Source: Sergeia podlipaevii | Taxonomy: Eukaryota; Euglenozoa; Kinetoplastea; Trypanosomatida; Trypanosomatidae | Reading direction: 5' to 3' | Assembly (NCBI GenBank): GCA_030849805.1 | Contig: JASANZ010001985.1 | Span: 1 to 29,798 of the forward strand | DNA: 29,798 nucleotides | Shown here: positions 1,425 to 28,059 of the stretch, in pieces | Layout: every line of letters starts with the position of its first letter | Numbering within the stretch: position 1 is the stretch's first letter | The notes under the pieces: generated by a model | Database searches by the model: none | Seen by the model: only the letters and a program-made list of their open reading frames with translations | What the model was told of the DNA's origin: nothing | Program-made: the position numbers and the translations under genes

Positions 1425-4159
1425 CTACATGTAGCTCTTTGGAGCGACAGACTCTGGAGAGCTAATGAGCTCCTCAGCGTCCGTGAGCATCATATTCATG
1501 CGCTTCAGCATTGCAGCGTAGTTGTTCTTCTGCTGTTCATCAGTAGTGTTCTCCACCTTGGCGGTCCAGCGCTCTATTTCCTTCTTGGTTGCGTCCACAA
1601 AGCGTTTCACATTGCCGCTGCGGGGCTCTGTGTTGGCAACAGAGCGAAGAGTGGTGGCTGCATCAAGTGGTTTGCTAGCGTCGCTATCGGCGTCAGAGAG
1701 ACAGACCACACAGAGTGAGACGCTGCCACCGCCAATGCTATAGCGATACTGCAGGAACGGCTCCGAAGCGCTCTTCTCCTTAATGTGCGTGAAGTGTTCC
1801 ATGTCCTCGCCGGCGAGAGAAATGTTCAGGGAAGAGAGATAGACCGTGGAGTGGCTGCCAAGCTTTTTAATCTGGCGAAGAATGAAGTACCCGCAGATGA
1901 GTTCCTTCTTGTCTGTGGATGCCGTAACGCCCTTCATGAACACCTCTTTGGCCTCCTCAGGCGTATGAATCTCCTTCGTCACCAGCTCCTTGATAGCTGG
2001 GCCGTACACAGGTGAGGATGACATTTGCAACTTGGCGTAGTCACTGCCGTCCTTGTACAAGTCCTTGATCTGGTCCCCACCCTTCATCGCTCCCATTGTA
2101 CTGTAAATAGCAAAAGGCTCGCCCATATCCTTCAACTTTTGGGCGGCGCTGGCAAGCACGTTAGCTGCAAACTGAATGGATGCCTCACGCTCGCCCTTGC
2201 CAGCGCCAACCAGAAGGCTGGTATTATGGCCGATGATCCACTGACGCTTCACCTCGTCAATGGTGGAGCCCTTGAGCGGCTTGGAGTAGTCTGAGTACTC
2301 CAGCACCTCCTCCATCTTGACGTCCTTGTTGCCGCCCAGCGTCACCGTAGAGCAGTCCTTGCGGGCTACTTTCTTCTCTGCAGCATCTGTCTTGCGAATC
2401 ATGACGAGGCCACGGATCTTCGTGCCTGTTGGCTCTGGCGCCACGTCCTTCTCCTTCTCCTCTCTCTTCTCTTCCTTCTTCTCCTTCTTGTCATCGGGCT
2501 TCTTGTCGTCGAGCTTCTTCTCGTCAGGCTTTTTCTCGTCAGACTTTTTCTCGTCAGACTTCTTCTCGTCAGACTTCTTCTCGTCAGACTTCGTGTCATC
2601 GGACTTCTTATCGTCAGACTTCTCGGCAATGCGGATGCCACGGGTTCTCGGCTTCTCCTCCTCCCTCTTGTCCTCCTCCTTCTTGGACTCCTTCAGTGAG
2701 CGCGAGTGGGCAGAGAGGGCTTCCTTATCGCCCTTGCTCGGTGTCGCGCTGCTGCGCTTCTCCTTCTCCTCGCTCTTCCTCTCGCCGTCACCATCTACCT
2801 TCTTGCTGTGCAGAGGCTTGATCTCAGCGCGAATAAGGTCGTTCTTGGCGAGGAAGCTGTCCCTACGTGCGGCTGCGTCAACCACACTCTGGTAGCCAGA
2901 AGTCCCACCGTACATGCTGCCCATGCCGTACATTGAGCCCATCATCGGGCCGTTCATGCCATACATGGAACCCATGGGACCTCCCATACCGTACATGGAT
3001 CCCATGGGACCTCCCATACCGTACATGGATCCCATGGGGCCTCCCATGCCGTACATAGAACCGCCATAGAGACTTGAACCCATCTGATTGCCATACATGC
3101 TGCCTCCCATACCGCTCATAGCATATCCAGACATGCCGTTCATATCACCACCCGAGAAGCCGCCAGGTCCCATACTGCCCATCATGTTGTCACCACCACC
3201 CATCGAACCATAAGGGATGGGGCCTCCCATCATGTCGCCACCGCCCATCGACCCATAGGGGTTGGGAAATCCCATCATGCCACCCATCATGTTGTCACCA
3301 CCACCCATCGAACCATAAGGATTGGGACCTCCCATCATGCCGCCCATCATACCACCTGGACCCATAGAGCCATAGCCCTGGAATCCAGGCTGCTGCAGCT
3401 GGGCGTTCTCTCCGTAATTCGCAGGAGCGCCGATGCCCATGGGGCCACCCATCATGCCGCCATTGCCGTACATGCTGCCGCCCATGGCGTACACGGAAGA
3501 AGGAACAGCCGTCGCGGGCTCCTGAGGCATGCCAGGAGCACCTCCCATACCGGGACCGCCCATGCTAAAGCCTGGGGGTGGCATCGGTGCGCTGACAGCG
3601 TTCGGGCCCATACCCGGAGCGGGAGGGGCAATAGCCGGTGGAGGAGCAGCGGCATCACGAGACTTGGTGGCGGCGGGTTGCTTCTGAGCTGCAGCAGTCC
3701 CGGCAGGGTCGAGTGTGGCGCAGCAACAGGAGTGGTGCCGTTAGACTGGCTCGAGCGACGTTCACCGTGAGGGCGGGCAGCAGCAACGCCAGACTGAGGA
3801 GTCTGACGAGGAGCGCCAGCACCGGGGGCTCCGGTAGAGGCAGAGCCAGGCTGTGAGGTAGCACTTGAGCGTCTGCCGTTGCTGGAGTGCGTGGCGCCAG
3901 TTTGAGGAGTCTGGGCCGAAGAACGAGGCGCGGCAGAACCAGTGCTTGGGGTCGAACGAGGCTTCTGGGTGCTGCTGGTGTTACTTTCAGCGTTTGCAGT
4001 GGAGCGAGTCTTATGAACACCAGACTGGGGTGTGGCACGAGGCGCGAGATTGGAGCCGCTGCCTGAGCGGCGGGGACCGCCGGAGCCATTTTCCAAGCCA
4101 GTGTTACTGCCGCGGGGGCGAGACTCACTTGCAGGCTTCGTACTGGTGCGAGAGGACAT
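1425..4159 (-). CDS. Gene A: single-domain pseudokinesin-like protein with GSMYG repeats (one apparent frameshift)
   Basis: I do not recognise a named gene. The protein has a Ser/Thr/Pro-rich start (Met at 4159, MSSRTSTKP), a Gly/Met/Tyr repeat region, a Lys/Asp/Glu 5-residue repeat tract, and one family domain at the C-terminus ending in SYM. The frame open from 4159 and the frame carrying the rest (first Met at 3611) differ by one base. The lower frame reads sensibly upstream of 3611 as far as about 3720, then hits stops at about 3741 and 3762, while the 4159 frame is Ser/Pro-rich down to about the same point. One missing base near 3709-3735 would join them and give about 911 residues. The start at 4159 resembles those of genes B and C (MST...), and a T-tract and AG lie just upstream. 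The domain shows GHNTSLL, SSPVYGP, YSIGGGS, PRSGNVKRF and a P-x-S-Y end. The role is unknown. I am sure it is coding, and moderately sure the shift is a sequencing error rather than a real lesion. Confidence 0.85.
1428..2420 (-). other. Family domain A1 (degenerate kinesin-motor-like)
   Basis: Counting from the Met at 3611, the domain starts near residue 398 (IRGLVMIRK, like the first motor strand). It shows VKMEEVL, GHNTSLLVGAGKG (461-473) where a kinesin has GYNxTIFAYGQTGSGKT, SSPVYGP (532-538), LSSLNISLAG (592-601) in place of LxLVDLAGSE, YSIGGGS (624-630) in place of DSLGGNxxT, then tail motifs PRSGNVKRF (663-671) and SPESVAPKSY (718-727). The kinesin P-loop Lys-Thr pair and both switch motifs are missing. 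Membership in the nine-copy family is firm; the kinesin origin is inferred. Confidence 0.75.
2484..2624 (-). repeat. 15-bp tandem repeat encoding K-S/P-D-E/D-K units, gene A
   Basis: About nine imperfect 15-bp units (cttcttctcgtcaga type) encode KSDEK-like pentapeptides followed by a Lys/Glu-rich stretch. The product is a strongly charged, disordered linker between the GSMYG region and domain A1. Confidence 0.9.
2931..3491 (-). repeat. GSMYG-type Gly/Met/Tyr repeat region of gene A, with a 30-bp tandem repeat
   Basis: Protein units such as GSMYGMGGPM and PYGSMGGGDNMMG recur here. At DNA level a 30-bp unit (cccatgggacctcccatacc...) occurs in tandem at 2971-3000 and 3001-3030 (identical) and 3031-3060 (few changes). 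A second, longer repeat underlies the PNPYGSMGGGD copies around 3180-3350. Such DNA repeats change copy number easily. Confidence 0.9.
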
Positions 4160-4185
4160 CTACGCTGGCAAAAAAAAAAAAAGCC
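4160..4185 (-). promoter_or_regulatory. Candidate trans-splice acceptor of gene A
   Basis: In the transcript sense, about a dozen Ts are followed by GCCAG (AG complement at 4165-4166) and then CGTAG directly before the ATG at 4159. This would leave a leader of 5 nt, or none if the second AG is used; no other AG lies between tract and start. A spliced leader is normally added at the first AG after a T-rich tract in trypanosomatids. Confidence 0.55.
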
Positions 4186-6909: not shown

Positions 6910-7252
6910 ACTACCTTCTACTCTTACTACTACCACTTTTTCACTCCATTTTTACTTTGTGTGTTCATGCACACACACCAGTTAAACATAGAGCAAAAAA
7001 TGATAATAATAATAATAACTATGATGATGATGATATTCGCCAGCCGTCAAAACATGCGTAGGGAAAAAGAAAACAGAAAAATATATATATGAATCTTGGC
7101 GTGCTTGCAAGAGGCCATGCAAAACAATAATAATAATAATAATAAATGTAACACAAAAAAAAAAATCAACGAATGCATATTATTAAACAAACACTCACAG
7201 AAACGAAGGGGAAAAGCAGCACAAGTGTGCGTACAACAACAATGAAAACAAA
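6910..7252. repeat. Imperfect tandem duplication, copy 1
   Basis: This stretch is repeated at 7254-7601 with identical non-repetitive sequence and small length changes only in simple repeats (for example one fewer aat unit in the second copy). It ends at a single N. Confidence 0.95.
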
Positions 7253-7253
7253 N
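7253..7253. other. Ambiguous base / likely contig junction
   Basis: A single N between two copies of the same 0.34-kb sequence. Confidence 0.9.
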
Positions 7254-7601
7254 ACTACCTTCTACTCTTACTACTACCACTTTTTCACTCCATTTTTACT
7301 TTGTGTGTTCATGCACACACACCAGTTAAACATAGAGCAAAAAATGATAATAATAATAACTATGATGATGATGATATTCGCCAGCCGTCAAAACATGCGT
7401 AGGGAAAAAGAAAACAGAAATATATATATATGAATCTTGGCGTGCTTGCAAGAGGCCATGCAAAACAATAATAATAATAAATGTAACACAAAAAAAAAAA
7501 TCAACGAATGCATATTATTAAACAAACACTCACAGAAACGAAGGGGAAAAGCAGCACAAGTGTGCGTACAACAACAATGAAAACAAAGAAAAAAAAAAAA
7601 A
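7254..7601. repeat. Imperfect tandem duplication, copy 2
   Basis: Second copy of 6910-7252, running on into an A-run and ending at another N. The differences from copy 1 are confined to microsatellite and homopolymer lengths. Confidence 0.95.
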
Positions 7602-7602
7602 N
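7602..7602. other. Ambiguous base / likely contig junction
   Basis: A single N between two copies of the same roughly 32-bp sequence. Confidence 0.9.
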
Positions 7603-7634
7603 CAACAACAATGAAAACAAAGAAAAAAAAAAAA
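7603..7634. repeat. Short third repeat of the duplication end
   Basis: The 20 bases caacaacaatgaaaacaaag plus an A-run repeat those at 7569-7601, right after the N at 7602. This is the pattern left when overlapping contig ends are joined without merging. Confidence 0.9.
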
Positions 7635-8083
7635 GCAAAGCTGTCAACATAAAAGAGAAGTAAAAAAAAAAAAAAGGACGGTAAGAGTACGTTTAAGTAT
7701 ATATCTTTTTCACCGTAATAGTTACTGTTACCACAAATCTAAATGTTAGCAACAACACCAAAGTCGCATGTTTTTAAAAAAAAAATCCACACTTTGGGTG
7801 CGATGTGATACGTAAGCACACTATTAAAACAGCTACAAAAAGGCTGCCAAAAAAAAAAAAGAAAACTCGTTTTTTTTTCCGTCTTCTTTCTCTGCCTCAG
7901 TCAATGTCATCTACTCATCCTCCGTCTTCGCCGCATTTTCTTTACTTTTTTTTTTCCTTTGGCCCGCCTTCTTTGTTTATTGTCCCGCCCTATCTATCGT
8001 AAGTTTTTCGCACCTTAAACTCTTTGCTGTTGTTGTTGCTGTTGTTGCTGTCTTTACAAAGAGGAAGTGTGAAAGTTGGATAT

Positions 8084-10395
8084 TTAGGCTTCACCCATCA
8101 GGTAGCCCTTAGGTTTCGTATTCTCAGGGTCGCTGAGGATCGCCTGCGCATCGGCAACCATGTCCTGCATCCTCTTGATCTGGGCCTCACGCATTGTCTT
8201 CTCAGAGCCTGTGACGTTAGCGCTCTTCTCCTTGACGCGATCCGTCTCCTTCTCGGTGAACTGGATGAAGCGACTAACGTTACCACTGCGCGGAGGCTTG
8301 TTGACCACCTCGCGTATCTTACGCTGTGACTCTAGAACATCGCGGGCCTTGGCATCGTCCTCGCTGACACACAGCACACTGACAGTAATGCACGAGCCAC
8401 CGATGGCGTAGCGGAAGAGCTTGTATGGGGAGGAGGCCGCCTTCTCCTTCAGGTCCACAAGGTGCGAGGGCTGTTCGCGCATAAAGGCAACGCACAAGGA
8501 GGACAAGTGGACCTCCACCTCGGAGCCCTTCTTAGTCTGCTTAAGCACAAAGAAGCAAGTGATGATCTCCTTCTCATCGGCGGCATTTTTAATGCCCTCG
8601 TTGAACGCCTCGAGGCAGCTCTCCGTGTTCTTGGAGTACTTGGTCTCCAGGCCCATCAAGCACGGGCCGTACACCGGGGAGGAGCCGAGATTCAGTCTCC
8701 CATACTCGGCGTCAGAGCTCAGCAGATCAAGGCCGCGGTCGGACCCCCTGATGGAGCACATCGTGATGGAAATCTCAAACTTGGTGCCATTCGACTTCTC
8801 GTTCTTCTCAAGACGGTCCACACATTTCTTCAAGAAGGCGCGAGCGACATCGTAGGAGTCCTTCATCTTCTTCGCTCCGGCAGTCACAAGCAGCGCGGAG
8901 TTGTGGCCATTGAACCAGTTGGCGCGTAGCTCAGAAAGTAAGACAGAATCGATTTCCTCCGAAGGCTTCGCGCGGGCAATGGCCTCGTCGCAGGTGAAGG
9001 TTTCCTTCTTTCCATCCTTTTCATAGATCACTAAGGCCGGGTCCTTGACCGCCACAAGCGGCTCACCCTTCGCCTTGTCAACCAGCAGCAGCGAGTGCAC
9101 GTTGTAGTTGGATGGCACCTTCGCGCGTGGCTTGTTGTCCGCAGAGGCGCTGGTGCCTGCAGTGCGTGCCTGCGTAGAAGAAGAAGCCCCAGTGGTGGTA
9201 GCAGGTGCAGCTGCAGCAGTAGCGGACTTGGCTAAGGTCTCGCGAGGAGTCGGCCGAGACTTATCATCGTCCTGGTTGTCCTTCTTCTTCTTCTTAATGG
9301 AGATGGTGGCGCCGTATGCGTTGCTCGACACGACCGGCGCTGACTTGTCGCTCTTGTCGCGCACATACAAATGGTTGCCGCCGCGCTTGCCGCTGCGCTT
9401 GACCTCCTTTGCGTCCTCCCAGCTACCAATGTTGGGGCACAAGTCCTCTGTGCGGATCTCTGAAGACTCCTTGAAGCCGCCATAATCGCTGGTCAGAGTA
9501 CTTCGGTTGGCGCCACCCATGCCGGCGTCGCCGTTGATGTTGCCAAGGCTGGCCCACTGAGCTGCAAAGCCATACGCGCTTACGGATGGATGCATCATGC
9601 CGTACATGGAGCCAACGGGCTGATACATGGAGTTCATGCCATTGGACAAGGCCCCGTTGGAGTACATACTCCCACCCATGGGACCGTAAAGGGAGCTCAT
9701 GCCACCACTCATGCCGCCCATGCCATCCATGCCAGCCCCATCTGTTCCGTACAGAGAGCTCTGGCGCATCGAAGAAAACTGGCCTTGGCCCATGCTGCCG
9801 AAGCCCTGCTGCCCGAGGCTATACTGAGGTTGCATCTGACTGCCGCCGGTGGCAATAGAGCCGGGGCCTTGCCGATTGTAAAAGGAGTTGGTGGGGTTGT
9901 AAAGAGAACCGTTGTTGTACCCGCTGAATCCGTTAGGGTTGTTGTACGCAGAGCCCCCCTGAATGGAACCGGTGGTGAGAGTGCTTGGATACTGTTGCAT
10001 CATGTTCATCGTGGAGCCATAGGGGTTCGCACCGCCAGGGACGCCGCCGGTCATCGCGAAGCCGCCTTGATAGGCACTGCCGCCCATGTTCTGTGGCATC
10101 TGCTGCTGCTGCGGAGGCGCCATCTGAGAAACTCGAGACTGTGGCTCTCGGTTCGCCATGCTTGGACTCTGCAGTGGGGGGCCCTGCTGGCGCATGGGCT
10201 GCTGTGGGGTCACGGCAGGAGTACGGGCCATGCCTTGAATTGGTGTGAGGCTCTGGTTGGTCATCATCGAAGGCTGCGGCTGCTGCTGCTGCTGAGGAGG
10301 AGGCATGACCGCATTGGCGCCACCGCGAATGGCATTATTTATGCCATTGGGTTTGGACTGTGGGGTAGGACCGCGTGCTTGCGTAGGGACGGCCC

Positions 10396-10427
<32 letters not shown>

Positions 10428-10642
10428 GGAGCCTGCGGCTTTGGTTGTGTCTGCTGAGCTGGGGCCTGAGGCTTCGTGCCGGCCTGAGGGCTGGTGCCGC
10501 TCTTGGCGGTAGTGGTGCCATCGCGATTCTTGTTCGAGAAGCTGCTGGTCTTCTGAAGAATGGACTCGGACGGGGGTGGGGGTACCACAGCGCTGTTGCG
10601 GTGTGGAAGAGGCTGGGTCTGCGGGGCCTTGGTAGTGCTCAT
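8084..10642 (-). CDS. Gene B: single-domain pseudokinesin-like protein with Q/N-rich N-terminus
   Basis: This is an intact 852-residue frame, not matched to any named gene. Residues 1-190 are Pro/Gln-rich, including a run of ten Gln at about 73-82. Residues 190-355 are rich in Gly, Ser, Met, Asn and Tyr with units such as GSMYG and SSLYG. Residues 380-510 are charged and then Ala/Thr-rich. One family domain occupies about 514-785, with a conserved helical tail to the end. Landmarks are FTCDEAI (549-555), GHNSALL (579-585), SSPVYGP (654-660), LSSLCVA (713-719), YAIGGSC (745-751), PRSGNVSRF (784-792) and DPENTKPKGY (838-847). The positions follow a kinesin motor, but no Walker A, SSRSH or DLAGSE is present, so ATP hydrolysis is not expected. 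The Met at 10642 is the first ATG after the acceptor-like sequence CTCTTTACAG, giving a 17-nt leader. The domain is closest by eye to that of gene A. Confidence 0.93.
8102..9103 (-). other. Family domain B1 (degenerate kinesin-motor-like)
   Basis: Residues 514-847 of gene B. This copy gives the clearest match by eye to a kinesin motor from end to end: VHSLLLV, then ALVIYEKDGKKETFTCDEAI-like strands, GHNSALL, FEISITMCSIRG (like the HIKVSYFEIY strand), SSPVYGPCLMGLE (like VPYVKGCTE), the ESCLEAFNEGIKNA helix, ITCFFVLKQ (like HSIFLINVKQ), LSSLCVAF, and YAIGGSCITVSVLCVSE (like DSLGGNCRTTIVICCSP). The stretch equivalent to helix alpha-4 (INKSLSALG) is much shortened. Confidence 0.75.
9578..10075 (-). 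repeat. GSMYG/Asn-rich low-complexity region of gene B
   Basis: Residues about 190-355 of gene B hold irregular Gly-Ser-Met-Tyr-Asn units (GSLYN, SSLYG, GSMYS, GSMYG). They are more decayed at DNA level than in gene A, with no perfect tandem unit seen. Confidence 0.8.
10397..10426 (-). repeat. (CTG)10 trinucleotide run encoding polyGln, gene B
   Basis: Ten uninterrupted CTG units on the plus strand read as CAG codons for ten Gln (residues about 73-82). A pure CAG run is likely to be length-variable between isolates. Confidence 0.95.
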
Positions 10643-10659
10643 TCTTTGTGCAATGTTTT

Positions 10660-16200: not shown

Positions 16201-18622
16201 CTTGTAGGTCATCCAAAATACGCGTGAGGGATGCAATAATGATGTTTTCAGCGGCGTGGCGTGAGCTTGAGGCGGTGAGGGCGAGAAAAGCAACATTGTG
16301 GCCATTGAGCACCTCCCTCGAAGCGTTGCACAGTGCATCCGAGTCTGCCACTTCTACCAACCCCTCAGCGCTAATGTGCACCTCATCCATCTCAAACTTC
16401 TCGCTACTGCCGGGAATGTCAACGGTGTTGGTGGCGCTTGCGCTGTAACCACGCTTCTTCGGAGCTGCAATCTCACCAACGGGCAGTGACGGCGCCAAGC
16501 TCGGGTCAGTGAGCACAGCAATGCACTGTAGCTCAGGCCCAATAGACTTGAGTGGACGTACCGGCAAAGTCTCGAGCACCTCCAAAGCACGTGTCTTGGC
16601 CAGCAGTCGTGCCTGTTCTTCCTCCGCCTCCTTCAGTAAGCGCGCGCGCTCTTCTGCTGCTTTCTTGGCTTGTGCCGCTCGCTCTGCGTCAGCCGCCTCC
16701 TCGCGCATCCGCTCTGCATTTTCTTCCGCCTCGCGTCTCAGTCGAGCCGCGTCCCTCATTTGCCTCAGACGCTTCTCCTCCGCGGCTTCAGCCTCACTGT
16801 TGTCCGGGGCAATCTCGACCGTGCGTGGACGTGAAGGTAGTGCATGGGCGAAAAGCGCGTTGGACGGTGGAGGAATGCTGTAGTCTGGCTTGGCCTTCAT
16901 GTTAAAGCCCTTTGGTGGCTCAAAGAGCCCAAGCGGCCCGACGTAGCCGCCTGTGCTATCATAGCTTTTTCTCGAGCTAAACATACGCTCCAACCCGTAG
17001 AGGCTGCCATATGTGCTGCCGAGGTCCATGCTGTTGTACCTCCGGATTCCATACGCCGAGCCGCCGCTCATGGAACTGCCCAATGACATCATTCGCTGCA
17101 AGTCACTCGGCCGGCGTGTAAAGCTGTTGTTCTGGCCCGGCACCTGGAACAGATCGAAGCCGCCGGAGAACGAGCCAGTGCTACCCATGTAGTACCCTCC
17201 AGGACCGAAACTTCCGCGGTTGCCAAACATCATGCTCCCGTCAGGTGCCACCATGGACCCATTGGCACTGCGATGAAAAGAATCTGCGCGCATCATGTTG
17301 CCGTTGTTAGTCCCCCCTGCGTAGAGCATACTGCCTCCAGGTCTCATAGAGCCAACCCTTTGCATCCCTATCATAGACCCAGACTGACTATCCTGACCTC
17401 CTCCGTACAGCATACTTCCGCCAGGTCCCACCATGGAGCCTCCTTGGCGACTCAGCATCATCGACCCGAACTGGTTCTCAGCACCACCGTACAGAGCGCT
17501 CCCACCAGGTCCCATAGAGCCCGTTGTTCCTCCAGCTGGTCCACCCATCCCAATCATGGATCCCACTTGGCTCCCCGGGTCTCCACCATACAGCATACTT
17601 CCTTCAGGTCCGCTGCCCATCATCAACGAACCGTTCCTGCTGTCCATGCCTCCACCTGGCCTCATAGAACCATAGAGGTTTGGGCCATAAGGCTGAGAGG
17701 TGTTAACGTAGGCAAAAGAAGCCGGCATCATCAACCCACTCCCAACGCCCTCGCCAGCGTACAAGCTCTCCAAAGAGGACTGCTGCGGCATCATGTATGG
17801 CCCAATCGGCCTTTGAGACTGCTGTTGCTGATTGGGTGCAGGTGTCGTGAGAGGTGGAAGTGGTGCAGGAGTCACAGCGGTGCGTTCTGTAGATGCAGCG
17901 CCGTTGGCAACTGTGGAGGAACCGGATGTTGGCGCCGATGATCTGCGCCAGATCCCAAGGGCGTGGTCGCCTGGTACAGGAGTCGGTGTACTACGTGTCT
18001 TGTAGTTCTCCGTCGTCGAAGCTTCTCTCGGAGCGCGTACCTCGCGATTCCTCGGCCGCAGCGTAGGCTGAGAACCAGAAATACGCGATGAGGATGCTTC
18101 TGCAGCGCCACTTCGCTGCCGCCTCACACCACTTTCACCGCCGCCACCACTGCCGCCGCCGCCGCCGCGGCTGCCACTGTCTAAACGCTCCAGCTGTTCT
18201 GCTTCATTTATCGCCCGCGGGCGGCCTGGGTTGTTTTCGGTTGCTGGGCTTCGAGTATTGCGAGGTCGGCGATGCCCAGCACGCTTGTCGTGGCCATCCA
18301 CACTCTCCTTGCGCCTCTTTCCTTCCTGCTTTGCCTTCTCCTGGCGGTCATGCTCCAGCTCCTTCTGCTTCTGCTCTTTCAGCCGCCGCTTCTCTGTAGA
18401 AGTAGCCGACCCACTGCCGCCACCACTATCATCACTGCCTCTGTATACCGTGCGGTTCCCACTCGCTGTACGACCTGTGCCACGGAGCGACGAGGATGAG
18501 CCCTGCGAGTTGCGATCGCTGGATCGTGCGGAGCTCCTGCGCTCTAGAGCATAATCAAGACGTCTCTCGCTGCTTGGTCGCTCTGGGATCTGTTGACGAC
18601 CACTGGCTGGGCGCGTGCTCAT
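13244..18622 (-). CDS. Gene C: three-domain pseudokinesin-like protein with GSM repeats and coiled coil
   Basis: This is an intact 1792-residue frame with no named homologue recognised. Order: basic, Ser/Arg-rich disordered start (1-260) with a Lys/Glu-rich helix at about 77-105; a GSM/GSMLYG-rich segment (about 315-545); a highly charged Ala/Glu/Arg heptad-like stretch (609-690) that should form a coiled coil; then three family domains at about 699-1053, 1073-1427 and 1446-1792. Pseudo-P-loop positions read GHNVAFL, GYNVAVL and GFNAALL; the third keeps GST after it but has no GKT/S. Tail motifs are SGNMKRF, DGSVKRF and SSLKRF, with ends PLPVY, PLPTY and PVTVY. The coiled coil suggests self-association or filament building (inference). 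The start at 18622 (MSTRPASG) is the only ATG after a candidate acceptor at 18692-18693. Confidence 0.93.
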   Translation of the reverse strand: MSTRPASGRQQIPERPSSERRLDYALERRSSARSSDRNSQGSSSSLRGTGRTASGNRTVYRGSDDSGGGSGSATSTEKRRLKEQKQKELEHDRQEKAKQEGKRRKESVDGHDKRAGHRRPRNTRSPATENNPGRPRAINEAEQLERLDSGSRGGGGGSGGGGESGVRRQRSGAAEASSSRISGSQPTLRPRNREVRAPREASTTENYKTRSTPTPVPGDHALGIWRRSSAPTSGSSTVANGAASTERTAVTPAPLPPLTTPAPNQQQQSQRPIGPYMMPQQSSLESLYAGEGVGSGLMMPASFAYVNTSQPYGPNLYGSMRPGGGMDSRNGSLMMGSGPEGSMLYGGDPGSQVGSMIGMGGPAGGTTGSMGPGGSALYGGAENQFGSMMLSRQGGSMVGPGGSMLYGGGQDSQSGSMIGMQRVGSMRPGGSMLYAGGTNNGNMMRADSFHRSANGSMVAPDGSMMFGNRGSFGPGGYYMGSTGSFSGGFDLFQVPGQNNSFTRRPSDLQRMMSLGSSMSGGSAYGIRRYNSMDLGSTYGSLYGLERMFSSRKSYDSTGGYVGPLGLFEPPKGFNMKAKPDYSIPPPSNALFAHALPSRPRTVEIAPDNSEAEAAEEKRLRQMRDAARLRREAEENAERMREEAADAERAAQAKKAAEERARLLKEAEEEQARLLAKTRALEVLETLPVRPLKSIGPELQCIAVLTDPSLAPSLPVGEIAAPKKRGYSASATNTVDIPGSSEKFEMDEVHISAEGLVEVADSDALCNASREVLNGHNVAFLALTASSSRHAAENIIIASLTRILDDLQEAEVKQPGRKSEVLLSASAFPDPDTARDVLLKPAALAKNAPCQVGKNPVYGSCVMGMSQHAMKSSADSMKSIVEAVARSDKKEMLVMVFTVKQIIPSPSSSKGGGATAPEVYVSSIFVALMSDANMAYLQSLRSRTNENTESLFSYVFTGRAVTTVIVPVTPTEPPTTRDAALQEAAHMRRITPTENVASGNMKRFIEFTEKSYAKRSTTEEPTASEAEVKQKMKQILDDAKQLNAHPEMTPLPVYPQEKEQGLMHSGKRREAGTKVAAVIVGAPRTAVQVRIDRKDPTDESAFVTLPGSKTRVPFDEVIETRTGDAMPNSPLFDTAGTSLRAGYNVAVLSAEMMSTTPLAVQFTWRNFTRTLERTITSAAGDESAGITHEIQLYMCVLRRREALCDLFAETGGGDGASTGAFPFTVVSSPLFGSIIYGTQHKVLRDPTKVDAVVKNALFRAALLLERDDDAVVAIVVYKRIEADDVVLSSMLCSSSHSTAMLRALSDNNEAYSRSLYSYAVKGPCMTTTYIVTEQQNGGDAEAFAVHIGDIKTLERWTGNALRDGSVKRFVEYGRKNVEHADAKLASAETANDSAKQRRYEHQVRRSRRMVEDHEELLRHPVKTPLPTYTSDGSRSSTLGKIKPPNPVLTVAVVVDSRDSGAAADNGSLTAQLESTEEYVRCKGTSYKPTEIVNVKANTIRSRVVDDVVYKLLGGFNAALLTADAKGSTVGRSLATKTVLSVLKRLASRGDEAYWSVIVQRGNKFKDILTSDSSDFTPMELGVSPTFGPIAEGAVISRLSSDGSEVEGLIKTACVERVTGEGGVVIIVLIPKLTEVIGGDAEMGADGGNKREEKGVTVPSLLLAIAGNGSGVYSEVVHQRAHERGLFQYALGGPCHTVYVGGVLAHDADAASPILNFIPELNAFMNPPLRSSSLKRFVEYTESMLSALQAKARESTGSERDEALRSAIRVEEMVNDAKAMIASPQNRPVTVYKR
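13247..14287 (-). other. Family domain C3
   Basis: Residues 1446-1792 of gene C. Strand VLTVAVVVD (like the opening kinesin strand), LLGGFNAALLTADAKGSTV, VSPTFGP, VVIIVLIPK and YALGGPCHTVYVGG, then the tail SSLKRFVEY and SPQNRPVTVY just before the stop. Gly-Ser-Thr sits near the position of GKT, but the Lys is missing. Confidence 0.7.
14342..15406 (-). other. Family domain C2
   Basis: Residues 1073-1427 of gene C. Strand KVAAVIVG, then KTRVPFDEV (very like kinesin F-x-FDxVF), AGYNVAVLSAE, SSPLFGS, VVAIVVYKR, VLSSML and YAVKGPCMTTTYIV, then the tail DGSVKRFVEY and HPVKTPLPTY. The PFDEV and AGYN landmarks are among the most kinesin-like in the array, but the Walker residues are absent. Confidence 0.7.
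15464..16528 (-). other. Family domain C1
   Basis: Residues 699-1053 of gene C. It begins with strand IAVLTD and has EKFEMDEV, NGHNVAFLALTASSS, KNPVYGS, VMVFTVKQ, VSSIFVAL and YVFTGRAVTTVIV, then the tail SGNMKRFIEF and PEMTPLPVY. The P-loop position holds only small and hydroxyl residues, with no Gly-Lys-Thr. It directly follows the coiled coil. Confidence 0.7.
16553..16798 (-). other. Predicted coiled coil in gene C
   Basis: Residues 609-690 of gene C are almost only Ala, Glu, Arg, Leu and Lys in a heptad-like pattern (AEEKRLRQMRDAARLRREAE and onward), with no Pro or Gly. This is typical of a long single helix or coiled coil. It sits between the GSM-rich region and domain C1. Confidence 0.75.
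16988..17680 (-). repeat. GSM/GSMLYG repeat region of gene C
   Basis: Residues about 315-545 of gene C repeat units like GPGGSMLYGG and GSMIGM at roughly 20-25 residue spacing. The shared GSM-Y-G core with genes A and B indicates common descent of the N-terminal module. Confidence 0.85.
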
Positions 18623-20589: not shown

Positions 20590-23500
20590 CTAGAGTTGAA
20601 TGACATTGTCTGAGAGGCACAGATCAATCTGGTAAGACTTCGGCTTAGTTTCCTCAGGCGCCTCCAGCAGTCTCCTCAAGTCCCGCTGCACCTTCTGCCA
20701 GCTCCACCACCCAGCCGCAGGCACCTCGTCCACATCGCATATGGCAGCGGCCGCAGCGGCGACGGCAGTTGGGTTGATATCTCGACCAGAGGTGCGAAGC
20801 GGACTGGCGGAGAGCGCCTTATCTGCAATTGTAAGAACGCGTCTGGCACTTCCCACGCGCGGCACCATAGTCCGGAGCTTCATCAGTTCGCTGCCGAGTC
20901 GCAGAAGCGCCTCCCGCTCTTCTCGAGGGGTAGAAGTGGCGACGCCAGTGAACCCGTACGCGTGGCACGGAGACTCCAAAGCCCTGGTGATAAGATGCAT
21001 GAGTTGGTCTGGGTCTGCGGAGGCCTGAGCAAACATGTGGGGAGAATACTGGGTGGTGTTCTCCGTGTGAGGTGTGGTCAACACCGCGAGGATCGAGTTC
21101 ATGTAAACGTCGTCCTCCTCCTTGACGATCTTCTTGATCACAAGCGACATCACCATCGCGGATTTATCTTCCTTGCACAAGGTAAGCGTATCCCGCATAG
21201 TTGCGACCAACTCCGCAACCGACTCCGCACGACGATAGTTGGCATTTTCAATGCAGAACCCAAAAAGAGGCGAAGCCGCCACACGGCAGTCATCATATTC
21301 AACTCGCCGAAGAACATCCTTGGATACGTCCCCGCGTCCAGGTTCATGACGAAGAGACACCATCGAGATGAACAAACTAACGCGCGAGTCCGCGAGAAGA
21401 CGATCACCGACACCAGAGATCACTCGCTCCAACACCGCCCGTGCAGCTGTAGAGCCTGTCGCATCGGCAAGCATTAACACCGCGTTGAAACCGCCCAGCA
21501 CCTTACTTGCGATGTCCTCTAGCGTAGACGGACGTACCACAGCAAGAGCATCAGCACGTTGCAGCACCTCAGAGAACCGGTACGTCCCTTGAGCAGACAC
21601 GATGGTTTGTACACTTGCGTTCACATTCAGTGGTGGCTCCCTGCTCCCCCTCGCGGCTCGCGCATTCGTGCTAGACTCATCAGTCGTCACAACGGCAACA
21701 GATCGAATAGACTGTAGTGGAGCTTGACTTCTTCGCGCAGTGAATGCCGCCGCCACCGCGTCGTCAAACTCTGCCGCGCGTTCACCTTCATCCTCCTCGC
21801 TTCTGTCCATACCATTGCAGTCCTCCACAAGATACGCTGGCAGCCGCACGCTGCTTGCAGGGCTTTTCAGCAGCTGCTCCATATCCGCCATCATGCGCGT
21901 CACGAGCTCCTGCGATGGGTCCACGCTACCGCTCCCTGCTGCACTGCTCGAGCCCTCCACCTGCTTCTGCGTATAGGCTAGCCTGCGACGCTGGTAATCC
22001 AAGAAGGCCCTCACGCCACCACGCGGAACAGGGTAGGTCGTCAAGAATCGAATACGCTGGAGAAGCTGAAGTGCCTCCAGACCGAGCTCACGCGTGCACC
22101 CATTCAACGTGCCGAGCGCCAGAAACTTACACGGGCCACCGAACATGTAACGATAGAGAGACGGGGGTAAGGAGCCATTGGGGTCCATAGCAAGCACCTC
22201 ACGCAGCACAGGTAAATCCCGGGAGACCCGGAAACAAAAGGCGGTGAAGGAGGACAGCGCCACATCCTCCTCGTCCCTCTCCGTCTTCGTTACTCGCTTC
22301 ACCACCGCACTGGCCACAATTACGGTGCCTGGCTCCAGAGAGTCCATTACTCGCTCCACACGGTTCACGCCAATCTTCATCGTCGAAATGCACTCCGTCA
22401 GTGTTTTCGCGGAAACCATGGACGCGTTGTGCACCACAGGCCCAAACAGCGGCGACGCCTCCACCATGATGTAAGAAGGTGGCGACTGCGGTTGCTGCTG
22501 CTCATCCGCAAGGAAGTCACGGACGATCTGACGGTCTCGTAACGCGACAATTCGCAGTTGCACCTCACTCGACTCCTCCCAGTCCGGCAAGAACGCGACA
22601 GAGGCCAAAACACCGCGAAAGACGCTCCACAGCGGCCGCGTGCATGATGCAACAGACGCTACGGGGGTCGTGCTGCTGCTGTAGTCACAATCATCCATAA
22701 CGCCAGCTATGGCGCAGCTGCGAGCTTTGCGAACGCAGTCCATTAACGAGCTAACGAGATGCGATTTGGCAAACGGCATACGGGACTCGGGGTCGGTGGC
22801 CGTGTAGAACAGCGCGTCCTCATCGCACTCGAACGTCTCCCCGGTCGGAAGCCACACTACACGGCCGTGGTCGCAGCTCACGCACGAGCATAGAGAGCCC
22901 TTGGAGTCCATCCCCAGCAGGAGTCGCGGGTGCGCATTAGGCATTCCAGTGGTCGTCACCGTCTGGCTGCTGTGAGTGTTGTACGTCGTGAACGTTGTGT
23001 TGTTCTCTAGCAGAGTGCCAGGGGACGGCCCACTTGATGTCGGACAGTTCGTGGTCGGAAGAGAGGCACCACTTGCAGTCACGGGAGGCATGTTTATCTT
23101 GCCACTAGTACCATTGGCGTTACCAGCCCTCGTAGTGTCGTCTTCAGGTTCAAACATGACGTACGCAAGAGGGTACGAACCGTTGGGATCCCTGACAACG
23201 CGCTTGTAGTCCGCCAGCATCTTCGTGATCCACTTATCTGTCATCATGGCACTCTTCGTACTAGCGTCAATCGACTGGGATGAGCGCGATGCGCGCTCCT
23301 CAACGCGGTCGGTAAGGGCTTGCTCTGTGCGCTGTACAAAGCGCCCGATGCTGCCAGAGTGAAGGATCTCCTTCACCACTGGAATTGTGAGTCGAAAGAG
23401 TGCGGCCACGTCAGGGGATTCGGCAGCGCTCGCGAAGGAGCCGAGCACCACAGAGGCCGCAGCCCCACTCAGAGCACTGCGGTTGAGTAGATTGATGCGC

Positions 23501-26500
23501 GGACTCTCCTTACCTTTAATAACACGCGTGCACCACGCTGTGTGAGAGCCAAAGAGAGACACCGACAAGGAACACGTGAAGACGTCTGTGCGCGTAGAAA
23601 ACAGGTTGAGAACGCTCACGTAAATGCACGTTTCTGGAGCCCAAAAAAGAGCAGCCTGGCGCATCGCGCCGATGCGCAAGTCATCCCACTCACTCGTCGA
23701 GCGCAGCTGCACCTTCACGGCGTCATGCACAATGGGTCCAAACACTGGGGAGCATGACAGCAGCAAGTGCCGCGGCTCCGCTGGCCTCTCAAGCAGCTCC
23801 ACCGCCGTGTCGCCAGCACGTAAGAGCGACATGGAGACCTGAACGTTGCGACTGCGGTCCCCAGTGTGAGACAAGGCAGCTGCGATGGCTTGGCGCACTG
23901 CCGGCCACGCCAGAGAGTGGGTGAGTAGACACGAACTATCCTCCACTGCCATGATTGCACAACTGCGGCCCGAGGCAAACACGTCCGCTAGCGCCTTGAA
24001 CTGAGAAGATGTCTTCGTCCCACGTACTTGACCGGTGCTGCGAGTATTTTGAGATTGTCGTGTTGACGTCACCCGTTCAAGTGAGATAGCCTCATCCACT
24101 GGTAGTTGAGTGTGGGTGCTGATTTCCTCCACACTGGTGCCCTTGCGGGAGATGTTAAAACCACATATGCCCTCCTCCACGTACGCCACGCGATGGACGC
24201 GACGGTCGCAAAAGAGTACGGTGGAGACGCCGCCACTCTCGTCCAACCCAGCGTGGACCTCGCGCGTCAAGCTCGTGCCACTTGTGCCGATGGTTCCCGA
24301 AGAATATCCGCCATAACTAAACGGAAGCGACGCACTCCTTTCCGAAGACGACGGCAGCAGTTTTAGTAGGTGAGGTGAAGAATGGCGCTGTAGCGGCACC
24401 CCAGTAAGCCCGCGCAGAAAGTGAAGATTACCGCTTCCACTGTTGTTGATATTGTTCTTGCGAACAACTGGAGCAGCGGTAGCACTGGCACTTTTGGCAG
24501 GCCTTATTGAAGTCTCGGCCACTTCCTTGATGTCGGCGTTGACATCATGGCTGCTACGTGGCATTGGAGGGAAAGCGCTCTCCACTTGTGGGCGTCCATT
24601 CACTAATGCAGGGTCACCGCTACTTTCCGCCTGCTTCACATCCTTCATCTTGCTGTCCTTAGTGATGATGGCGGTACTCCTTTCGTCTTGGTACGGAACG
24701 TTGTGGCAATCAAACGGCACCGGAACGTTCTCTGGATCAGCAACGAGCCTCAGCATCGAATTGATGAATCCAACATGCATTGCAATAGTTGCCCGCGCCA
24801 ACGCCATCTTCTTTGGATCCTCCGTCGCCGCCGCGGCTTCCTGCAACCGCGCGTTACTTGCGGCCGTAAAGTCCAGATATCTCCGCACGTTGCCACTCAG
24901 CAAAGGCCCATTACGCACAGAGCTCAACTCACGACAGAAGCTGACGTACTCGCGAGGTTCCACCGTGTCCTTTGAGAGGCACGCAGCGGCAACGGTGAAG
25001 CCACCATCGCCCACACGGTCCACTAACCCTCGGATCTGCGAAGGGTGACGACCAGGATAAATGCAAATTGACTGGGCATAATTGGGGTCACGTGTCATGA
25101 GCAGTGTCAAGGAGGAGAGAACCAAATTGCGACTCTCAGGGTCGCTTGTGTAGAGGTCTCTTGTCTGACGAATGAGCACGTACATCGCCAGCATCTCCTC
25201 CGCGCCAGTCGGGGCAGAGGCACTTGACCTAAGCCACGCATCGATTGGCACAGTTACTTTAGCAAGGTCTGATGCGTCAGCCGACGCTATCTCAGTGAGG
25301 GGAATCCCCTTCACCCAGCAGCCAACCGTCGGGTTATACACCAGACGCATGGGCTGTGGCTCCAAGCCAACGTAGTTGTCGTTCCTTTTGTCGTTGGTGA
25401 CCGACCTGGGCAAGCCAGCGGCGGTCGGTGTAAGCGGGATGAGATTGCGAACCTGGCAAGCGCGGTCAAACGCACAGACAGACACTTCCACTCGAAAAAA
25501 GAACGCGCCGCTGCCAGGCTGAGAGCCGCCGGCCGCTGTCGCCATCTGCTCTCTGTTCCGCAGCTTTTCATATATTTGACCGAGAGCTCGCTCCACAAGT
25601 GCTTTCACCGTCGCATCTGAGCCCCCGCCGGCAGCAAGCACCATCACCGCCGTATGCCCCTGTAAAACCTGATCCGATAGTTCATCGATGAGACTGCTGC
25701 GTATCACACTGCCTCCACCAGCCATGCGCATCTCCGCCAGCTTAGGGTCATACTCAACGACCTCGTCCATAACCATCTCCGACAACAGGTGGCTGTCACG
25801 CCCAACTGGGCGAAGTTGAATGACAGGAAACGACACATCTCTAGGGATCGCGCAGAATTCGTTATATGGTGCCTGCACTGCTATGAGAGAAAGCACTCTC
25901 TCTGCAGAGAAGCGCCGCGTACCACCACCACGACCACCATTGCTGCAGCTGCTGCCTCCGTGAGATGGCGCAGGTACTTGAAGCCGCTGGCAATTCGCTA
26001 AGGTAGGACTCTGAGGGGAGTAGCGAAGCGCGCTCATCATCTGATTCTGCTGCTGAAGTGCTGTTGATGCTCGCGCTTGCTTCCTGTGAGACGTGGAGCT
26101 GCCACAGATGCCTTTTTCTGAGTTGCAGGAGCCGTGAAACAAGATGCCCTGCAGCTTGTCCCCCGACCCGGAGTCGTTGCCACTTGCAGCAGTTGCTGCT
26201 GCTCCGGCCGGGGGGAACCTGCCGCTGCCAGAGTACTCTAAAAAATGATCTAGCAGCGAGCTGCCGTCGGTGGGCCTCGAGGAACTGAGAGACTCCGGCA
26301 TGCCATAAGAGTACACTTCAAACTGGTCTGACGCATTGGCGACGGTGCTCTGGAAAATAGAGATCGCACTAGCACGTGCCTGATTGCTCGCATCCACATC
26401 CTCAGTACTTTGCAGAGCATCGGGAAAGCCTAGAAACATGAAAGTATTCAGTAAGTCTGCGTCCAAGCTGTGGACACGCTCAAGGGACTTGCCATCATCT

Positions 26501-28059
26501 TCGTTTTTAGCATTCAACTCATACATTTCGCAACTAGTATCGTTGTCGCCATCGACAGCCACGTCATCATCATCATCATCATCATCATCATCGTAATCTT
26601 CAGCATCATCGTCTGTGCGGCAGTAAAGGTCTATAAAGTCGCCATAAGAAGGCAAACGGGAAATGGGCTCGAGGAGTGCTGTACTTGTCGGCATCTTGGT
26701 TGGATCGACATCACGCTGGTACGTCAGGATGGAGCTGTTGCTCTCGGTGCGGTGCGGGGTTGTGTGAGTGGGCGGAGGCAGGTGACTCGTCATTCGCTGT
26801 CGCGACATGCTGCCTGGACTTGGCTGCACAGTAGTTGGCGTCAATAAACTCCCACGTGCTTCTGAAGAGCGTGTCGCGACATGCAAGACCGGAGTTTGAG
26901 TTGCTGACAATGCAGTACTGTTCATATTTCTCAGCTGTTGCTGTTGTTGAAGGAAACGAGCGCGCCCCTCCGCTCTGCCATACTGTTCTATGGCAGCCCT
27001 GCCAAGTTGGCGGTGTGGGTCTACGCTAGCCACCTCTTCACTTTGGTCCGTCGAATACAAGACAGTGGTGATGCCACCCGCAACACCACTACCACCTGGG
27101 TAGGATGCATCCGCATAAGGAAGGTCAGGAGAAGGTGTGTCAGCTGACGAAGCATTCCACCGCTCGCGTGCGTGAAGTTGTGGCACAGGCGGCGCAGGCG
27201 CCACTGCTTCAAGAGGCCGCACCGACCTATTCGGCATCTCATCGCTGCCTACTGCAGTCCTGTTTGTGCCCTCCTTCTCTCCCCTGCTGCCATCGCGCTC
27301 GTCCATGGCGGAGGAAGAGTCCAACGGGGCGAGTCGCTGTCTTGGTGGCGGTGATGGAGCTGCAGCGGCACCGGAAGAAAATGCCCTTCTAGAGCGCTGG
27401 TGTCCAGAGCGCGTAGGGCCGCGGTTGCCATTGAGGCAGTCCTGGAAACGGGCATCATCACTCACAGTGGTCGGATCGGCCAACGGAATATCACCTTCTG
27501 CCTCGAATGATCGAAGTGGTTTTACCACTGGCAATGCACGCTGTCGCGGCCACGGCGATTGCTGATTCTGCGCTGCTGAAGGTGGCTGTGACACCGATGG
27601 CTGCTGCTGTTGCTGCCGCAAGGAACCATCGAGAGGATAGCTAGCCACATCGTTTAACGATGCGGTCTCTAGCATGGACGTGTCGTACCCATCCACATCG
27701 ACCGAACGAGAATCTTGCGTTGTCTGTGAAGCGTCAGCACGTTCATCGCCGCTTCGACTCTCTCTTCTCCAAGACACGCCCTCGTTGGAATGTTGGCGCT
27801 TTGAGGACGAAATAGACGGAAGTTCAGACGCTCTCTTATCAAGCGTAGAAGACGGCTTGTAGTTGTGCGACTCGACAGAGCGCATCGCTGGTGCATCGCG
27901 GCTTGCCTTGCGGTGCTTCGCATGAGGGAAACCAAATACACTATTCTTCACTGTCTTCTTACTGCCCTTCTCGTATGCTGCAACGTCATGATCACCAACA
28001 CCATCGTTGTGAGATGAACGTTTGCTTTGATCCTTTTTGGATCTACGAAAAAACTGCAT
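20590..28059 (-). CDS. Gene D: four-domain pseudokinesin-like giant protein
   Basis: The frame gives 2489 residues from the Met at 28059 (MQFFRRSKKD). The frame is open to 28311, but the extra 84 residues are Phe/Cys/Val-rich translation of the pyrimidine tract, and a good acceptor (ACCCACAG) at 28139-28140 would exclude them; 28059 is the first in-frame ATG after it. Residues 1-740 are mostly disordered, with Gln runs, a basic start and an Asp run at about 490-499. Four divergent family domains follow at about 745-1120, 1278-1637, 1710-2078 and 2118-2477, separated by disordered linkers. Unlike A-C, it lacks the GSMYG segment. Domains 2 and 3 are the most altered at the P-loop position (RSCAIM, RSCAIA), while domain 4 keeps GFNAVLM followed by GST. 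Tail motifs SGNVRRY, SGSIGRF, RGGVRAF and a weak fourth copy mark each domain end. Possibly a large structural scaffold; the function is not known. Confidence 0.92.
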   Translation of the reverse strand: MQFFRRSKKDQSKRSSHNDGVGDHDVAAYEKGSKKTVKNSVFGFPHAKHRKASRDAPAMRSVESHNYKPSSTLDKRASELPSISSSKRQHSNEGVSWRRESRSGDERADASQTTQDSRSVDVDGYDTSMLETASLNDVASYPLDGSLRQQQQQPSVSQPPSAAQNQQSPWPRQRALPVVKPLRSFEAEGDIPLADPTTVSDDARFQDCLNGNRGPTRSGHQRSRRAFSSGAAAAPSPPPRQRLAPLDSSSAMDERDGSRGEKEGTNRTAVGSDEMPNRSVRPLEAVAPAPPVPQLHARERWNASSADTPSPDLPYADASYPGGSGVAGGITTVLYSTDQSEEVASVDPHRQLGRAAIEQYGRAEGRARFLQQQQQLRNMNSTALSATQTPVLHVATRSSEARGSLLTPTTVQPSPGSMSRQRMTSHLPPPTHTTPHRTESNSSILTYQRDVDPTKMPTSTALLEPISRLPSYGDFIDLYCRTDDDAEDYDDDDDDDDDDVAVDGDNDTSCEMYELNAKNEDDGKSLERVHSLDADLLNTFMFLGFPDALQSTEDVDASNQARASAISIFQSTVANASDQFEVYSYGMPESLSSSRPTDGSSLLDHFLEYSGSGRFPPAGAAATAASGNDSGSGDKLQGILFHGSCNSEKGICGSSTSHRKQARASTALQQQNQMMSALRYSPQSPTLANCQRLQVPAPSHGGSSCSNGGRGGGTRRFSAERVLSLIAVQAPYNEFCAIPRDVSFPVIQLRPVGRDSHLLSEMVMDEVVEYDPKLAEMRMAGGGSVIRSSLIDELSDQVLQGHTAVMVLAAGGGSDATVKALVERALGQIYEKLRNREQMATAAGGSQPGSGAFFFRVEVSVCAFDRACQVRNLIPLTPTAAGLPRSVTNDKRNDNYVGLEPQPMRLVYNPTVGCWVKGIPLTEIASADASDLAKVTVPIDAWLRSSASAPTGAEEMLAMYVLIRQTRDLYTSDPESRNLVLSSLTLLMTRDPNYAQSICIYPGRHPSQIRGLVDRVGDGGFTVAAACLSKDTVEPREYVSFCRELSSVRNGPLLSGNVRRYLDFTAASNARLQEAAAATEDPKKMALARATIAMHVGFINSMLRLVADPENVPVPFDCHNVPYQDERSTAIITKDSKMKDVKQAESSGDPALVNGRPQVESAFPPMPRSSHDVNADIKEVAETSIRPAKSASATAAPVVRKNNINNSGSGNLHFLRGLTGVPLQRHSSPHLLKLLPSSSERSASLPFSYGGYSSGTIGTSGTSLTREVHAGLDESGGVSTVLFCDRRVHRVAYVEEGICGFNISRKGTSVEEISTHTQLPVDEAISLERVTSTRQSQNTRSTGQVRGTKTSSQFKALADVFASGRSCAIMAVEDSSCLLTHSLAWPAVRQAIAAALSHTGDRSRNVQVSMSLLRAGDTAVELLERPAEPRHLLLSCSPVFGPIVHDAVKVQLRSTSEWDDLRIGAMRQAALFWAPETCIYVSVLNLFSTRTDVFTCSLSVSLFGSHTAWCTRVIKGKESPRINLLNRSALSGAAASVVLGSFASAAESPDVAALFRLTIPVVKEILHSGSIGRFVQRTEQALTDRVEERASRSSQSIDASTKSAMMTDKWITKMLADYKRVVRDPNGSYPLAYVMFEPEDDTTRAGNANGTSGKINMPPVTASGASLPTTNCPTSSGPSPGTLLENNTTFTTYNTHSSQTVTTTGMPNAHPRLLLGMDSKGSLCSCVSCDHGRVVWLPTGETFECDEDALFYTATDPESRMPFAKSHLVSSLMDCVRKARSCAIAGVMDDCDYSSSTTPVASVASCTRPLWSVFRGVLASVAFLPDWEESSEVQLRIVALRDRQIVRDFLADEQQQPQSPPSYIMVEASPLFGPVVHNASMVSAKTLTECISTMKIGVNRVERVMDSLEPGTVIVASAVVKRVTKTERDEEDVALSSFTAFCFRVSRDLPVLREVLAMDPNGSLPPSLYRYMFGGPCKFLALGTLNGCTRELGLEALQLLQRIRFLTTYPVPRGGVRAFLDYQRRRLAYTQKQVEGSSSAAGSGSVDPSQELVTRMMADMEQLLKSPASSVRLPAYLVEDCNGMDRSEEDEGERAAEFDDAVAAAFTARRSQAPLQSIRSVAVVTTDESSTNARAARGSREPPLNVNASVQTIVSAQGTYRFSEVLQRADALAVVRPSTLEDIASKVLGGFNAVLMLADATGSTAARAVLERVISGVGDRLLADSRVSLFISMVSLRHEPGRGDVSKDVLRRVEYDDCRVAASPLFGFCIENANYRRAESVAELVATMRDTLTLCKEDKSAMVMSLVIKKIVKEEDDVYMNSILAVLTTPHTENTTQYSPHMFAQASADPDQLMHLITRALESPCHAYGFTGVATSTPREEREALLRLGSELMKLRTMVPRVGSARRVLTIADKALSASPLRTSGRDINPTAVAAAAAAICDVDEVPAAGWWSWQKVQRDLRRLLEAPEETKPKSYQIDLCLSDNVIQL
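20629..21708 (-). other. Family domain D4
   Basis: Residues about 2118-2477 of gene D. SVAVVTTDES opening strand, GTYRFSEVLQ, LGGFNAVLMLADATGST, ASPLFGF, VMSLVIKKI, YMNSILAVL and a weakened ESPCHAYGF end strand. The tail is divergent (RVGSARRVLTI) and carries an inserted Ala-rich stretch, but ends APEETKPKSY, as in genes A and B. Its pseudo-P-loop matches C3 closely (GGFNA, LxAD, GST). Confidence 0.65.
21826..22932 (-). other. Family domain D3
   Basis: Residues about 1710-2078 of gene D. RLLLGMD opening strand, GETFECDED, RSCAIAGVMDD at the P-loop position, ASPLFGP, VIVASAVVKRV, VALSSFTAF and YMFGGPCKFLALG, then the tail RGGVRAFLDY and a long helix ending RLPAY. It shares the RSCAI variant with D2, which suggests D2 and D3 arose by duplication inside the gene. 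Confidence 0.62.
23149..24228 (-). other. Family domain D2 (most diverged)
   Basis: Residues about 1278-1637 of gene D. The pseudo-P-loop reads GRSCAIMAVED, followed by CSPVFGP, IYVSVLNLF, TCSLSVSLFG and SALSGAAASVVLG, then the tail SGSIGRFVQR and DPNGSYPLAY. The G-x-N landmark and the double Gly near the end are changed, so it is recognised mainly through SPVFGP and the tail motifs. Confidence 0.58.
24700..25827 (-). other. Family domain D1
   Basis: Residues about 745-1120 of gene D. VIQLRPVGR resembles the opening kinesin VxVRxRPxN strand. Then LQGHTAVMVLAAGGGSDAT, YNPTVGC in place of SPVYGP, MYVLIRQ, LVLSSLTLLM and GDGGFTVAAACLS, then the tail SGNVRRYLDF and DPENVPVPF. It is longer than most copies because of an Ala/Gly-rich insertion after the pseudo-P-loop. 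Confidence 0.62.
26564..26592 (-). repeat. ATC trinucleotide run encoding polyAsp, gene D
   Basis: About nine to ten tandem ATC units on the plus strand read as GAT codons, giving an Asp run at about residues 490-499 inside an acidic disordered stretch of gene D. Confidence 0.9.

Follow-up and report, generated by a model that had tools for sequence, protein, structure and literature searches.

The 29,798-base contig JASANZ010001985.1 of the trypanosomatid Sergeia podlipaevii (contig C286 below), analysed over its whole length and referred to here as the window, carries four long open reading frames (ORFs), W1 to W4, all on the minus strand and arranged head to tail. Their products combine a low-complexity N-terminal part with one to four copies of a kinesin-homologous domain. 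They are classed as ARND-type genes after the published kinetoplastid adhesion-plaque family (PNAS 2026, PMC13416946) to which, as argued below, they likely belong. The adhesion plaque is the pad that holds the flagellum to the insect, and the species is likely an insect parasite. The start of W4 was taken as the first ATG in the open frame 20590-28320.

W1 (P0001), 1425-3611, minus strand: 728 aa; one domain; ARND-type gene
W2 (P0002), 8084-10642, minus strand: 852 aa; Gln/Gly-rich N-terminus; one domain; ARND-type gene
W3 (P0003), 13244-18622, minus strand: 1792 aa; low-complexity N-terminus; three domains; ARND-type gene
W4, 20590-28059, minus strand: 2489 aa; long low-complexity N-terminal part; four divergent domains; ARND-type gene

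Nine copies of one domain in four proteins

The four proteins hold 1, 1, 3 and 4 copies of the domain, respectively, each of 333-376 aa and all encoded on the minus strand:

A1 (W1), 1428-2426, minus strand: residues 396-728
B1 (W2), 8099-9109, minus strand: residues 512-848
C1 (W3), 15464-16537, minus strand: residues 696-1053
C2 (W3), 14342-15412, minus strand: in the tandem model; structural match to kinesin
C3 (W3), 13253-14293, minus strand: in the tandem model; structural match to kinesin
D1 (W4), 24709-25836, minus strand: identified by BLASTP and iterated hidden Markov model (HMM)
D2 (W4), 23158-24231, minus strand: BLASTP and iterated HMM
D3 (W4), 21829-22932, minus strand: BLASTP and iterated HMM
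D4 (W4), 20629-21717, minus strand: BLASTP and iterated HMM

A previous examination of the letters alone (the sequence-only reading) had proposed four proteins built from nine copies of a single domain, and this was confirmed by both methods. With B1 as BLASTP query, the other eight copies were each recovered at E ≤ 8e-6, and an HMM built iteratively from these copies and related proteins matched all nine at ≤ 1e-62. Direct matches between D1 and D2, and between some other distant pairs, were not significant; these copies are joined via intermediate ones. Four columns are identical in all nine copies (P145, G148, S204 and P328 in B1 numbering). The ordered landmarks proposed for the domain were found in the expected order, but not every landmark is intact in every copy, as G-[HYF]-N reads GHT, GRS and ARS in copies 1-3 of W4 (P0004).

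With regard to the regions preceding the domains, the N-terminus of W1 is rich in Gly, Met and Tyr with GSMYG repeats and is followed by a Lys/Glu/Asp-rich linker that leads into the domain. GSMYG-like repeats are present in the N-terminal parts of W1, W2, W3 and the T. brucei-group protein P0016, and not in W4. Across the genome they occur in seven of the 13 family genes, with [GS]S[ML]YG counts of 12, 9, 8, 6, 3, 2 and 1, and the repeat part is possibly a condensate- or cross-link-forming tail. The minus strand at 3452-4159 also holds a 235-aa open frame, Ser/Thr/Pro-rich and out of frame with W1, which it overlaps at the 5' end. It resembles the N-termini of some W1 relatives (E 0.005 to P0019, in low-complexity sequence), and W1 may be interrupted, either by a frameshift or through an error in sequencing.

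A kinesin-homologous domain stripped of its motor elements

The domain was compared with kinesins of the same genome by means of two sequence sets. The first comprised 43 domains, namely 25 of the 31 HMM pieces detected in the genome together with 18 domains from 16 relatives; the six pieces dropped span ≤ 250 profile positions and belong to the genes C22:1946-8905 and C317:27793-32394, whose copies are strongly diverged and match the HMM partially or in pieces. The second comprised 28 kinesins (eight loci plus 20 chosen for near-complete motors) out of 64 genome matches to PF00225. Since the kinesin ORFs were chosen by the Walker A pattern, its presence in 28 of 28 is given by construction and was not used as evidence.

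Profile-profile alignment (hhalign) of the two sets gave a probability of 98.7% (E 3.5e-16, score 124.5) over 275 columns, covering family positions 21-300. The score reached at most 18.7 in 100 column-shuffled kinesin alignments and 19.7 with a reversed alignment, and profiles of other folds, built from Ras (11/12), kinase (11/12) and myosin (2/2) regions, remained at this background (18.2, 13.6 and 14.8, respectively). The result persisted with the nine window copies alone (97.7%, E 1.6e-12) and with 23 same-genome copies excluding W1 and W2, seven of them from W3 and W4 (98.4%, E 8e-15). The kinesin link drawn in the sequence-only reading was thus recovered over most of the domain, with no better-scoring fold among these controls.

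Searches that match single sequences to profiles, or a profile to single sequences, also pointed to kinesins, with a narrower reach. In the Pfam single-sequence scan, W2 matched PF00225 at E 0.073 and 12.5 bits, under the curated cut-off of 29.3 and hence against kinesin membership by Pfam score; no PF00225 match was present in W1, W3 or W4, and none of the 64 genome matches is located on the window's contig. PF00225 did match seven of the 12 members of the W2 alignment (E up to 10), the best at 7.1e-5. Against the PDB, the nine-copy profile retrieved 66 sequences at E ≤ 0.1; the best 60 of the 66 were all kinesins, with OSM-3 at the top of the matches listed (8.2e-8). Most of these 60 matches lie in the first half of the domain, a few in its last third. 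A search of the PDB (hmmsearch) with a 17-row alignment of mostly full-length proteins returned no match at E ≤ 0.01, probably because this profile of 801 positions is mostly low-complexity.

In line with the alignments, the predicted structure of B1 (predicted local distance difference test, pLDDT, 91; predicted template modelling score, pTM, 0.89) adopts the kinesin fold across model residues 1-280 and carries a C-terminal helical pair. The best structural match was a kinesin for the predicted models of B1, C2 and C3; C1, contained in the same tandem model as C2 and C3, had no fold match among the matches listed, and the six copies other than B1, C2 and C3 were assigned by sequence. Together, profiles and models support a domain homologous to the kinesin motor, sharing its predicted fold, its order of strands and helices and the landmarks that run colinearly from the GxN strand via LGGN to alpha-6. 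That the fold is unrelated to kinesin and merely resembles it, be it P-loop-like or alpha/beta, as the Pfam score under the cut-off might suggest, is extremely improbable, being contradicted by the predicted fold and by a colinear alignment that scores far above all controls (shuffled and reversed alignments as well as Ras, kinase and myosin). One of the best-conserved motifs of the family, PRSGNVxRF, directly follows alpha-6, the position occupied in kinesins by the neck linker.

The window domains differ from the PF00225 motor in lacking the P-loop, switch I, switch II, loop 11 (L11) and a full alpha-4. GxxxxGK[ST] was found at the P-loop position in none of the 43 domains, the nine window copies included; the single Walker-like string among them lies in a C161 copy at the SPhFG segment, away from that position. 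Switch II of the DLAGSE type was present in 0/43 domains compared to 24/28 kinesins, and the string SSR in 1/43 compared to 27/28. The sole SSR lies inside the P-loop segment of C1, off the switch I position, and SSRSH occurs in none of the window copies. These absences agree with the earlier statement that the copies lack all three motifs and should not hydrolyse adenosine triphosphate (ATP), and they support the view that the domains would be catalytically dead. Outside the array, the PF00225-positive kinesin-like ORF L076 (G000:C472:22567-24096) has a P-loop and reads VHTKGPDR in place of DLAGSE; it is possibly a further degenerate motor.

The stretch between the beta-7 and GG landmarks, which holds L11, alpha-4 and alpha-5, measures 33-53 residues in 43/43 domains vs. 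60-112 in 28/28 kinesins, without overlap, and is about 30 residues shorter than in kinesins. It spans 33-35 residues in 39 of the 43 domains and 33-41 in the nine window copies, so the shortened alpha-4 region previously noted in the window extends to the whole set. In the B1 model, one helical turn (214-217) is left between beta-7 (198-211) and alpha-5 (230-238), while the C1-C3 model has 8-12 helix residues there at lower confidence. The short span and the short helix of the models show that L11 is absent and alpha-4 reduced to a stub. In kinesins, alpha-4 serves as relay and as central contact with the microtubule, and L11/alpha-4 forms the main microtubule-binding element. Judging from this shortening, the domain is probably not a kinesin-style microtubule binder. 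The description as a pseudo-motor, therefore, holds with regard to ancestry, while the short L11/alpha-4 argues against kinesin-type microtubule binding.

Relatives in the genome and in other trypanosomatids

Protein-database queries were made with the W1 domain, W2 and W3; in the W2 and W3 searches scoring was confined to the 7980 and 7985 candidates, respectively, with the most words in common, so that the numbers of relatives are lower bounds. At least 11 relatives of W2 were found, in Novymonas, Leptomonas, Leishmania and Trypanosoma conorhini, two of them without a species name (P0008, P0009). The W1 domain has four relatives, one in Leptomonas seymouri and three in Leishmania. W3 has at least one, the T. 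brucei equiperdum protein P0016, with three such domains and GSMYG repeats, whose annotation starts 'Present in the oute', which fits POMP22. The relatives include proteins of L. infantum, L. enriettii, L. martiniquensis and Trypanosoma, and all 14 named ones, of 16 found, are trypanosomatid. In L. seymouri, the proteins related to W1 and W2 carry consecutive tags, ABL78_2820 and ABL78_2821.

Within the 23.4 Mb assembly, which was searched for both further genes and kinesins, the family comprises at least 13 genes on six contigs, with the 31 HMM pieces corresponding to about 28 domains:

C286 (the window): 4 genes
C317: 4 genes
C161: 2 genes
C63: 1 gene
C22: 1 gene
C574: 1 gene

A tree of the 43 domains, unrooted and with long branches, was relied on for the groupings of W1 and W2 and for one pairing of P0016. 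W1 grouped with the Leptomonas and Leishmania proteins P0017-P0020 (100/99) and W2 with P0005-P0014 (100/98), which the Trypanosoma protein P0015 joined weakly (89/56). Domain 2 of P0016 paired with a C161 gene (99/94), and its domains 1 and 3 were weakly placed. In the same tree, a single clade (100/97) unites the first copies of W1-W4, C161a, C161b, C317c and P0016, with later copies outside it; given this separation, domain duplication may predate the gene duplications. The first copies of C22, C317a, C317b, C574 and C63 also fall outside this clade, in what is an unrooted tree.

As for the remainder of the window, a scan for transfer RNAs and Rfam families returned no transfer RNA and no family over threshold. 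Two N bases, at positions 7253 and 7602, lie within the AT-rich stretch between W1 and W2.

The ARND family and the role of the domain

According to the accessible text of the ARND study, L. mexicana has 11 members, mostly in an array on chromosome 32 and with at least one elsewhere (LmxM.17.1030), and KIAP4 is LmxM.32.2940 (PMC13416946). ARND proteins are described there as having at least one domain resembling nucleoside triphosphatases (NTPases), for which the best match is 'invariably' kinesin and in which Walker A is not conserved. Seven members were strongly detected in the adhered haptomonad flagellum; deletion of KIAP4 severely impaired adhesion, and the mutants did not colonise the sand fly valve (PMC13416946). 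Further, three paralogues localised to the adhered side of the flagellum in T. congolense, and zero members are reported for Bodo saltans and T. rangeli (PMC13416946).

The window shares with this family the gene array, the multiple paralogues, at least one kinesin-like domain per protein, the lack of Walker A and the low-complexity regions, and ARND members occur in Leishmania and Trypanosoma, as do the relatives of W1, W2 and W3. The numbers differ, with 11 genes in L. mexicana vs. at least 13 in the genome analysed here. Low complexity was read directly in the N-termini of W1-W4, and ARND proteins are described in the accessible text with coiled coil and intrinsic disorder. Because of the array, the kinesin best match, the missing Walker A, the trypanosomatid relatives and the name of P0016, the window proteins likely belong to ARND. 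The array of multi-copy pseudo-motors noted in the sequence-only reading is real and is not a new kind of system, its core having already appeared in print (PMC13416946). The L11/alpha-4 shortening is an added point, a loss of this stretch being found neither in the main text of that paper nor among the listings returned by searches of open-licence PubMed Central.

We consider it likely that the nine kinesin-homologous copies, devoid of Walker A, SSRSH, DLAGSE and about 30 residues of L11/alpha-4, serve in the flagellar adhesion plaque not as motors but as static scaffold modules that bind other proteins, a reading to which the short L11/alpha-4 stretch in all 43 domains leads. Without P-loop or switch II the domain would be unable to cycle, and an alpha-4 of one to three turns would not let it dock on microtubules in the manner of kinesins. 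The fold would then be retained as a rigid partner-binding body, one to four per chain, multi-copy proteins could bridge several partners, and the low-complexity N-terminal parts (Gly/Tyr/Met- or Gln-rich) might concentrate or link proteins at the plaque. A comparable case within the same adhesion structure is that of the inactive calpain-like KIAP2 and KIAP3 (PMC13416946), dead enzyme folds as well; the calpain fold is unrelated, so the likeness is one of analogy only.

Several points weigh against the scaffold reading. The beta-5/loop 8 region (SSPhaG) and the alpha-5 region (LFRYAhGG) are among the most conserved of the domain, and these regions also contact tubulin in kinesins. The scaffold role is one that we infer, and the link to ARND is drawn from relatives in other Leishmania species, from the array and from the features described for the family, not from a letter-for-letter match to L. 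mexicana proteins. Moreover, the remaining L. mexicana members gave weak signal, were undetected or were unselected, and POMP22B (Tb927.2.5610), an ARND member, localises clearly to the mitochondrion in T. brucei, so that not every ARND protein acts in adhesion (PMC13416946, accessible text). In another study, Tb927.2.5530 carries the related name POMP22-1 (PMC7952579, accessible text).

A more specific proposal, compatible with scaffold modules, is that the domains polymerise in a septin-like manner into membrane-shaping plaque filaments. The authors of the ARND study, who expect protein-protein interaction, speculate on septin-like filaments for KIAP4 (PMC13416946, accessible text), and the tandem copies of W3 follow each other over linkers of only 16-17 residues (C1-C2 and C2-C3). 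However, septins bind guanosine triphosphate, while these domains have no nucleotide site in the absence of Walker A, and the C1-C3 tandem model (pTM 0.40) provides no repeat geometry. At this pTM no domain-domain arrangement can be claimed, and a filament-like arrangement was not seen. We regard septin-like polymerisation as doubtful.

The main rival to the scaffold reading takes the domains for heads like those of Vik1/Cik1, non-catalytic but able to bind microtubules, each a static foothold by which the plaque or its filaments would be fastened to the microtubules of the flagellum. The predicted kinesin fold and the conservation of the beta-5/loop 8 and alpha-5 regions are in favour, and a precedent exists in these yeast kinesin-14 partners, whose kinesin-like head binds microtubules without an ATP site and pairs with the active kinesin Kar3 (PMC4338441, accessible text). 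In contrast to Vik1 and Cik1, the ARND domains are without the alpha-4 element and occur in series of as many as four. All 43 domains lack L11 and most of alpha-4, and the main text of the ARND study does not contain the word 'microtubule', nor 'motor', 'switch' or 'alpha-helix' (PMC13416946). The missing alpha-4 leads us to rate a Vik1-like foothold lower, as unlikely.

Less probable still is a role of the window genes at the mitochondrial outer membrane or elsewhere outside adhesion. Such a role would fit the annotation of P0016, the best single match of which in the genome is W3 (5.4e-52), and the localisation of POMP22B. However, the one firmly placed domain of P0016 pairs with a C161 gene, W1 and W2, with a single domain each, are related to other proteins, and where one member localises in one species is a poor guide to the rest.

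Returning to the scaffold reading, its evolutionary extension seems to us evenly balanced between true and false: in a trypanosomatid ancestor, a kinesin would have been stripped of its engine (P-loop and switches) and of its track grip (L11 and most of alpha-4) and multiplied to one to four per chain as a building block of the adhesion plaque, a structural glue acting on neither ATP nor microtubules.

In another species and by independent methods, the array confirms a kinetoplastid adhesion family built of kinesin-derived domains. The loss of L11/alpha-4 sharpens the published statement of an inactive NTPase, in that it predicts a domain binding neither ATP nor microtubules, whose conserved segments SSPhaG, LFRYAhGG and PRSGNVxRF should mark the binding sites for plaque partners. 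If true, this would be a rare example of a motor fold put to structural use.
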